Below the pieces are notes generated by a model. That model worked only from the letters and a program-made list of their open reading frames with translations. It was not told the DNA's origin and did not search any database. Made by a program: the position numbers and the translations under genes. 64,000 nt of DNA, taken from assembly GCA_020152595.1 (NCBI GenBank), contig JAIGNY010001856.1, positions 435,001 through 499,000 on the forward strand, given 5' to 3'. Below, piece after piece: positions 53,201 through 58,256 of the stretch; within the stretch, counting starts at the first letter, position 1, and every line of letters begins with the position of its first letter. The stretch is from Chiridota heheva (lineage: Eukaryota; Echinodermata; Holothuroidea; Apodida; Chiridotidae).

Positions 53201-56200
53201 CTTTTCAGTTCCTGAATCTGTTGATGGATGTCGATTCACTGATAATGAAATGGAGAGGTAAATAAACTTATTTGTTTTATTTTCAGAAGGTCTTTTACAA
53301 AGCCTTTGAAAGTGAATTTCAATTATATTTTGAATTTTATAGATGATTTTTATGATTAATACATAATGATCAATACAAAATGATCAATACATAATGATTA
53401 ATACCTAATGATCAATACAAAATGATCTATACATAATGATCAATACATAATGATCTATACTAAACAAACTTTTCAAAAGATTAATTGATCAAGAAACCAA
53501 CTTACGGAAGTGGAAAATAACTGTATACTCACTCCCAAGCGTTAAGGGGATTTCCAGAACGCCCAAAAGGAGCTGCTTAAATATCTATTGCCTATTTTAC
53601 ATACAATGTAAGATGAGAGTTTCTAGCTGGAAAAAAATGAATAAACAAGTAAACAAATAAGGATAAGAATGAAAAAATGGAGGAATGAAAAACAAGGGAA
53701 TTTAAAAGGAAAATACAATAGAGCAAAGTCAGTACCACAAATGGCTTAAATAATATTCTGAAAAATCTTGTTTTGATAACTTGATATTGAAGTTTCAAGC
53801 ATTCACAAGTTGGGCCAAAAAATACTTGCACCAGCACTTGCACCAGCACCAGCACCAGCACTTGCACCAGCCATGTACTGGATAGAAAGTGACAGCAAAT
53901 AGACCTCTAGCTTGATTTGCAAAAGAGCAGGGTGCTAAATTTGTTGAGGGGCACATTAATGTCAGCTATAATCCTACCCAGAATGAATGGGGTTTTTTCT
54001 TCACCCATGCACCTCCTCTCTCATTACCAGCTTTCTGACTTTTAGTTCTTGTATTTCTCTTATTCTCCCTCCCCTGTTTTCTTTCCCTTCCTACCTCTAG
54101 AATGATCTAACCTCTCGGGTAAAATTTTACCCTCGTTGTCATGGTGCCATTAAGCCCTCATCAAAGAAAAAACAAAAAACAGAATGAAACTTTTCTGAAC
54201 CAAGGCCATTCATGAGCCAAACAGAACAATTTCTTAGTATGCTATCATTCTGTGTTCTGTATCCATTAGGTACGTACAAGGTTAAGATTATTAAGTTTTT
54301 AAAGAAGTGGACCTCCAAAATATGTGTCATTAAAAACAAAATCTTAAATTTGTTTCCGATGAGGGGCAGGGCAGGTTAAAGAGGGGTGGGGCGGGCCAAA
54401 GAGGGGTGGGGCGGGCCAAAGAGGGGTGGGGCGGGCCAAAGAGGGGTGGGTAGGCCAAAAAGGGGTGGGGTGGGCCAAAGGGGTGGGCGGGCCAAAGAGG
54501 GGTGGAGCGGGCCAAAGAGGGGTGGGGTGGGCCAAAGAGGGGTGGGCGGGCCAAAGAGGGGTGGGGCGGGCCAAAGAGGGGTGGGGCGGGCCAAAGAGGG
54601 GTGGGTAGGCCAAAAAGGGGTGGGGTGGGCCAAAGAGGGGTGGGGGCCAAAGAGGGGTGGAGCGGGCCAAAGAGGGGTGGGCGGGTCAAAGAGAGGTGGG
54701 GCGGGCCAAAGAGGGGTGGGTAGGCCAAAGAGGGGTGGGGCAGGCCAAAGAGGGGTCAGCAGGCCAAAGAGGGGTGGGCAGGCCAAAGAGGGGTGGGTGG
54801 GCCAAAGAGGGGTGGGCGTGCCAAAGAGGGGTGGAGCAGGCCAAAGAGGGGTGGAGCGGGTCAAAGAGTGGTGGGGTGGGCCAGATAGGGGTGGGGTGGG
54901 CCAAAGAAGAATGGGTGGGCCAAAAAGGGGTGGGGAGGGCCAAAGAGGGGTGGGTGAGCCAAAGAGGGGTGGGGTGGGCCAAAGAGGGGTGGAGTGGGCC
55001 AAAGAGGGGTGGGGTGGGCCAAAGAGGAGTGGTGGGCCAAAGAGGGGTGGAGTGGGCCAAAGAGGGGTGGGGCGGGCCAAAGAGGGGTGGGGTGGGCCAA
55101 AGAGGGTTGGGGTGGGCCAAAAAAGGGGAGGGTGGGCGGCCCCTCTGATACAACAAAGTTAGTGCACTGTCAAAAAATCTCTTTCAAGATGTAAAGTTGA
55201 TTTATTTTATCAAAAATTGATTGAAATATTTTAACTGAGTAAGAAATTATTTCAAAGCTTCTACATATCGTTATTGCTCTTTCGTATACCAGAAATTGTA
55301 AGATAAATTTGTGAATATTTTGTTTGACATAAATCATTCTTCGTAGTAAAATATGATTGACTGAGTACCTGTTTATTTCTCCCTCTGTCCTCCATCTATA
55401 ACTGACCTTCAACCTCCCTGTTAATGCGATACAGTTTCATAACATCAATTCATACCTAATAGAAGAACCAGTGTGTGATATGGAAACATTAACATGATTT
55501 TCCTTGTAATTTTGTAGTGAATCACGTCCAGTTGGTGCAAAGGATGCTGGGTTGTAAACCAGGCACTGGGGGTTCATCTGGGTACATGTACCTGAAGTCT
55601 ACAGTGAGGTAAGTAACCATTCCCATCTTTGCATAATTTGTATTATATATTTGGTTTTTAATATTTCAAGAGGTTTATAACAGTCCAATAGATAGTCAAA
55701 ATCAAAGATCCAAATATAATCACCAAATGCAGGTTCAGGTCGCCATGGAAGCAGCCAAAATGCTGCATGTGTACATTGTGTACTGCAGACTATTGAGGAA
55801 ATCAAACTTATTGCTTTGGTATGTTTAAAGTTGGTATAAAATGAAAGCTGGTTGTTGGTTCCTAATTACACCTCTGATATGCGTCAACACCATTAATCAA
55901 ATCTGTCCTTAGTGCATTAGTTTCTAAGATGGACAAATTCAATCATTTAAAGAAAAGAAGGGGGGGGGGGGGGAGGAATAGAAAATTCCTTACATATGGG
56001 GCCTAATACAGAGTGTTTTTGTCACCTTTTGCTGCCAGTGACCGATGCAGTGTTTTTGTCCCCTTTTGCTGCCAGTGACCGATGCAGTGTTTTTGTCCCC
56101 TTTTTTCCCCAGTGACCGATACAAAGTGTTTTTTCCCCTCAGTGACTGATGCAAAATGTTTTTTTCCCTTTACCCCCAGTGATTGATGCAAAGTGTTTTT

Positions 56201-58256: not shown

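Follow-up and report, generated by a model that had tools for sequence, protein, structure and literature searches.

The window, i.e. the whole 64-kb stretch of Chiridota heheva DNA that was analysed, carries a gene for tryptophan 2,3-dioxygenase (TDO). This identity, proposed in an earlier sequence-only reading, was confirmed by comparison of the translations with solved structures of the enzyme, the exon near 53.1 kb matching at E 3.7e-15 and the last exon at E 3.5e-07, and by Pfam PF03301, which gave six matches on the contig of the window (C1845), one lying upstream of the 64-kb stretch. The exons were joined by hand to obtain the protein used as a query. The highest identity among the homologues listed, 70%, was with the TDO of a sea cucumber, Apostichopus japonicus; for the listed proteins of sea stars, sea urchins, a brittle star and crinoids it was 52–57%. 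The last intron of the gene is occupied for the most part by a tandem array. The features of this region are as follows (window coordinates).

55518–55608, + strand: second-last TDO exon (start set by eye; GTAAGT donor located; ends in phase 2; TDO family match over the exon)
55609–58087, + strand: last intron (2479 bp), 83% of it taken up by the array
56004–56035, + strand: partial first unit, made of TAATACAGAGTG, a pyrimidine tract and GCTGC (left edge set by eye)
56036–58084, + strand: 61 complete tandem units of 26–39 bp, 52 of them with AG at the acceptor position
56786–57517, + strand: higher-order 140-nt blocks, starting at 56786 (reference), 57016, 57146 and 57378
58065–58087, + strand: true acceptor, a 21-nt uninterrupted pyrimidine run (58065–58085) followed by AG
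58088–58256, + strand: last TDO exon, ending in SSS and the stop codon TAA; the exonic part of the repeat derives from it

Position 58088 was taken as the real acceptor because the conserved TDO protein results from it.

Other minisatellites of the window were located at 135–2931, 20324–20892, 26881–28853, 47756–51215, 51488–52177, 54378–55121, 59403–61349 and 62130–62840, and several of them sit between TDO exons. The 22-bp array at 26,881–28,853, near another TDO exon, was considered as a second exon-derived array and rejected after reading by eye. At 46778–46976, a 99-bp sequence is duplicated in tandem (two copies, 97% alike), and about 25 bp separate its end from the start of the TDO exon near 47001. 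The interval separating the TDO exons near 26.8 kb and 47.0 kb contains open frames (30353–32232 and 34984–40105) that we take to resemble non-LTR retrotransposon reverse transcriptases. Downstream of the coding sequence, 13 copies of an unrelated 20-bp minisatellite, TTGGGGTGTTAAATTGGATT, were found at 58344–58605, starting about 88 bp past the TDO stop codon. The first AATAAA/ATTAAA match found past this codon is at 58684, beyond the minisatellite, which is therefore probably in the 3′ UTR.

Array structure and relation to the last exon

Units were parsed by sliding match and unit starts were picked by hand from the match list. A typical unit consists of CAG, about 19 nt of the 5′ end of the exon and a pyrimidine tract. 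Unit lengths cluster at 28–31 and 35–38 bp, and 57 of the 61 units are distinct. The exon is the terminal unit, starting at 58085 directly after unit 61 and in register with it. The sequence-only reading had placed a minisatellite of about 60 units here, with the real exon as its last unit, and both points agree with the count of complete intronic units and with the register of the array into the exon. It had also attributed one shared string to every unit; exact TGACCGATACAAAGTG was present in only six of the 61. As for the acceptor signals that it described throughout the array, most units keep the pyrimidine tract and AG, but the AG is found in 52 units and not in all.

The 140-nt blocks at 57016, 57146 and 57378 are 89–95% identical to the reference block at 56786, which indicates that the array grew partly by multi-unit duplication. 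Judged from the sequence, these block duplications show past instability of the array. The growth process may have been slippage or unequal exchange, between which the sequence does not discriminate.

Of the 22 positions of the ungapped unit consensus, CAGTGACCGATACAAAGTGTTT, 21 agree with the exon edge. Outside the array, the best match in the 64-kb window was 15/22 on the + strand and 15 on the – strand, and in 100 simulated sequences of the same length (first-order Markov) the maxima were 14–17. Similarity between unit and exon had been named beforehand as one of the points on which the proposed derivation could fail, and it is clearly above these simulated maxima. The likeness ends past position 22, with matches in 3/61 units at position 23, 17/61 at 25, 2/61 at 26 and 0/60 at 27; position 24, where a T faces the T run, matches in 49/61. 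The single difference between consensus and exon is synonymous (CGA for CGT, arginine), and the consensus unit still encodes DRYKVF. A total of 7994 TDO homologues passed the threshold and 120 of these were listed and compared: DRYKVF was intact in 115 of the 120, the other five being one substitution away. This conservation across the listed homologues implies that the coding segment predates the array and that the exon is the source.

At the CpG of the arginine codon, 28 units have CG, 21 TG and seven CA, and five are otherwise changed; these are not independent events, since units share changes by descent. Cytosine deamination in copies free of constraint would be expected to leave this pattern. 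Across the 61 units there was no trend of exon-proximal units toward greater likeness to the exon (Spearman –0.05, p 0.69), and a growth gradient in which units nearer the exon are more exon-like was rejected on this basis.

Confinement to one locus and control junctions

The array locus was found in one copy in the 1.1-Gb assembly. A 211-base query made of the array end and the exon edge was searched against the assembly (a search that skips very common words), and all 11 reported matches were inside the array locus. The exact 16-mer TGACCGATACAAAGTG occurs six times in the assembly, each time in the array. When one mismatch was allowed, 38 places were listed, 26 of them in the array and exon and 12 as scattered singles. 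With the reversed pattern as a control, exact matches numbered 0 + 13 versus 6 + 0 for the true pattern and matches with up to two mismatches numbered 212 + 279 versus 178 + 166. Over the whole genome the reversed patterns were at least as frequent as the true ones, and the confinement rests on the clustering of the matches at one locus rather than on their total.

Amplification of an intron–exon junction, as put forward in the sequence-only reading, is upheld by the 21/22 match, the conserved DRYKVF and this confinement. Taken as sequence comparisons, the data demonstrate derivation of the units from the exon, their confinement to the locus and the duplication of blocks.

Two TDO paralogues (contigs C3507 and C2400) have an intron at the same phase-2 position, of about 959 and 948 bp (by eye), and the array is absent from this last intron in both. 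Creation of a new intron by the array was rejected for this reason. The C3507 and C2400 copies are 89% alike over 5.5 kb and could be either haplotypes or a recent duplication. The TDO-like genes on these contigs (L017–L021) diverge from the gene of the window, reading DQYKVFGDLLN at the last exon. One C3507 match holds two internal stops, and C2400 has a further TDO fragment with one internal stop, near 802 kb on its other strand and ~50 kb from the copy.

Among the tested TDO junctions of the window, exon-derived copies were found only at the last one. At the 12 other junctions, several of which were positioned by eye and may be off by some bases, no copy matching at least 17/22 was found within 6 kb. 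Control loci were the 30 loci listed for 134 kinase-domain matches, which contain 37 tandem-repeat entries with a period of at least 10. The edge test was run on these 30 loci and on eight of 10 TDO loci (three in the gene of the window, the rest in paralogues; L009 and L014 were left out). Exon-edge arrays, with two or more repeated copies, were found at 0 of the 38 loci, versus a value of 52 for the positive control; introns seem to be lacking at several of the kinase loci, which makes the control a rough one, compatible with a rate of several per cent.

Decoy acceptors and their predicted products

The bases of the acceptor dinucleotide are kept in 54 (A) and 58 (G) of the 61 units, compared with a mean of 52.4 across the 19 exon-derived columns, and thus there is no sign of removal of decoy AGs. 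The 52 AG-bearing decoys and the true acceptor were compared as 53 sites. The uninterrupted pyrimidine run of the true acceptor (21 nt) is the longest; among the decoys the median run is 5 nt and the longest 19, and five of them reach 15 nt or more. This rank of first among 53 was examined after the fact and would occur by chance at about 0.02. The decoys had been presented as look-alikes of the true acceptor; that all sites are equal is not supported, given the longer run of the true one. With a human-style matrix, the true site (11.0) was tied second of 53 with unit 22, behind unit 28 (11.5). For AG-free distance, it came 10th of 53. A yTnAy motif was present 12–60 nt upstream of 27 of the 52 AG-bearing decoys, and none was found in this interval upstream of the true acceptor.

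Reading from the AG-bearing decoys would truncate TDO in 50 of 52 cases. In 19 cases a stop is reached after two residues, inside the same unit, and in the other 31 after 9–63 residues. The two remaining decoys (58010 and 58046) keep the frame and continue into the true exon. For a 37-bp unit, it had been predicted that a decoy product would begin with SDRYKVF and end at a TGA in the next unit. This applies to many 28- and 37-bp units, but a start with SDRYKVF is found for only seven of the 52, and the decoys that stop within their own unit or stay in frame depart from it. A stop codon inside an extended last exon is not expected to submit the mRNA to exon-junction-dependent decay.

The decoys are most likely ignored by the spliceosome under normal conditions, with correct splicing of the last intron. 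The true acceptor has the longest uninterrupted tract and is alone in being followed directly by the full terminal exon, and exon definition should favour it for these two reasons. At most, low-level mis-splicing would be expected, mainly costing TDO its last 55 or so residues.

Appreciable use of the decoys, as a drain on TDO that depends on copy number, appears unlikely. The proteins produced would end 2–63 residues after STV and escape exon-junction-dependent decay. The number of decoys that keep AG, the five long runs, the truncating frame of nearly all of them and the yTnAy motifs that the true site lacks are all in line with such a drain; the longest tract nevertheless belongs to the true acceptor, and published minisatellites of the same type reportedly leave splicing undisturbed. 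It is quite improbable that the two nearest decoys (58010 and 58046) serve as alternative acceptors for longer TDO isoforms, with 25 or 13 residues added before SDRYKVF. Both keep CAG and are in frame with no stop before the exon. However, the insert would hit a segment that is gapless in all 120 listed homologues, and the uninterrupted runs of these two sites are of 5 nt versus 21. Finally, the acceptor modules (an exon-derived branch-site-like segment, a pyrimidine tract and AG) might act as a splicing competitor of adjustable length, setting the amount of full-length TDO and hence the flux through the kynurenine pathway; we consider this role very improbable. Tuning of TDO output by copy number, put forward in the sequence-only reading, gained no support from the analysis.

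Origin of the array and comparison with known systems

The array is probably an aged and nearly neutral by-product of junction duplication, of the mirage type described below, whose decoys are normally ignored. Tandem copies of the 3′ splice junction, each with pyrimidine tract, CAG and the 19 nt that open the exon, would have arisen within the last intron, upstream of the original. The duplicated junction would then have expanded and diversified by duplication of units and blocks, while the original stayed at the downstream edge of the array as the presumed real acceptor.

Tandem arrays are often misassembled and the true copy number could differ. An assembly artefact is nonetheless highly improbable as the source of the array, since 57 of the 61 units are distinct, a variety that could not come from one segment copied artificially. 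An unrelated satellite or mobile repeat resembling the exon by chance can practically be dismissed: the window is dense in minisatellites, but the junction match is in register at 21/22, DRYKVF is conserved in TDO and confinement of the unit to the array locus in the assembly searches contradicts a repeat of this sort.

Minisatellites with splice signals have precedents. “Mirage” is the name given in amphioxus to minisatellites of intron/exon boundaries (excerpt of PMC3087553). By the three structural features in that excerpt, the TDO array is a mirage-type minisatellite. A tandem unit spans the intron/exon boundary (CAG, 19 exon nt and pyrimidine tract, 21/22), the authentic boundary adjoins the copies (exon unit at 58085 after unit 61, encoding TDO) and AG/GT signals are present in many but not all repeats (AG in 52/61). 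The amphioxus mirages that the excerpts mention are those of Adh3, the globins BflGb6 and BflGb9, and troponin C (PMC3087553; PMC3902484), and the TDO array resembles them in its tandem boundary repeats, many of them with AG/GT, and in the authentic boundary next to the copies. In PMC3902484, as excerpted, PGBD5 repeats are likened to mirages. As in the TDO array, the repeats of BflGb6 are made of the 3′ end of an intron and the 5′ part of an exon (PMC3087553, excerpt). According to the same excerpt, BflGb6 has six and three copies in its two haplotypes, versus 61 in the TDO array, and units of 150–160 bp, those of Adh3 being of 10–72 bp, versus 26–39 bp. The decoys of amphioxus mirages reportedly do not disturb splicing (excerpts of PMC3087553 and PMC3902484), and for Adh and troponin C the latter excerpt states that no aberrant mRNAs are generated. 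The globin paper, as excerpted, raises the possibility that units of a mirage function as cryptic sites (PMC3087553). The hosts differ, the TDO array being in an echinoderm and the mirages in lancelets.

A minisatellite of human IFI6 (6-16) was reportedly found to give multiple splice donor sites by Turri, Cuin and Porter in 1995. A paper citing that work states, as excerpted, that donor sites are provided by two downstream units of the repeat (PMC4526556). The units of IFI6, so far as this excerpt describes them, carry a splice signal like those of the TDO array, on the donor side in IFI6 and on the acceptor side in TDO. A multiple-donor minisatellite of the IFI6 type was therefore rejected as a model, the repeated signal of the TDO array being an acceptor. 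NAGNAG and other tandem acceptors consist of two or three adjacent AGs near the exon start. They resemble the TDO array in having more than one AG near this start, and differ from it in that the AGs alone are adjacent, whereas the array repeats full modules with a pyrimidine tract and an exon edge.

In the literature searched, no echinoderm mirage was found, and the mirages found in print are those of lancelets. A polymorphic 27-bp intronic minisatellite is described in abalone, in an excerpt where its relation to the exon is unstated, and “Mirage” in a nematode paper is the name of a transposon.

The TDO array is a large representative of a class of repeats known from lancelets. Its 61 units in a sea cucumber suggest a wider occurrence of minisatellites derived from splice junctions. 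The array also offers a natural experiment: a single intron brings together dozens of near-copies of the same acceptor whose pyrimidine tracts are graded, and the choice between acceptors would be countable.
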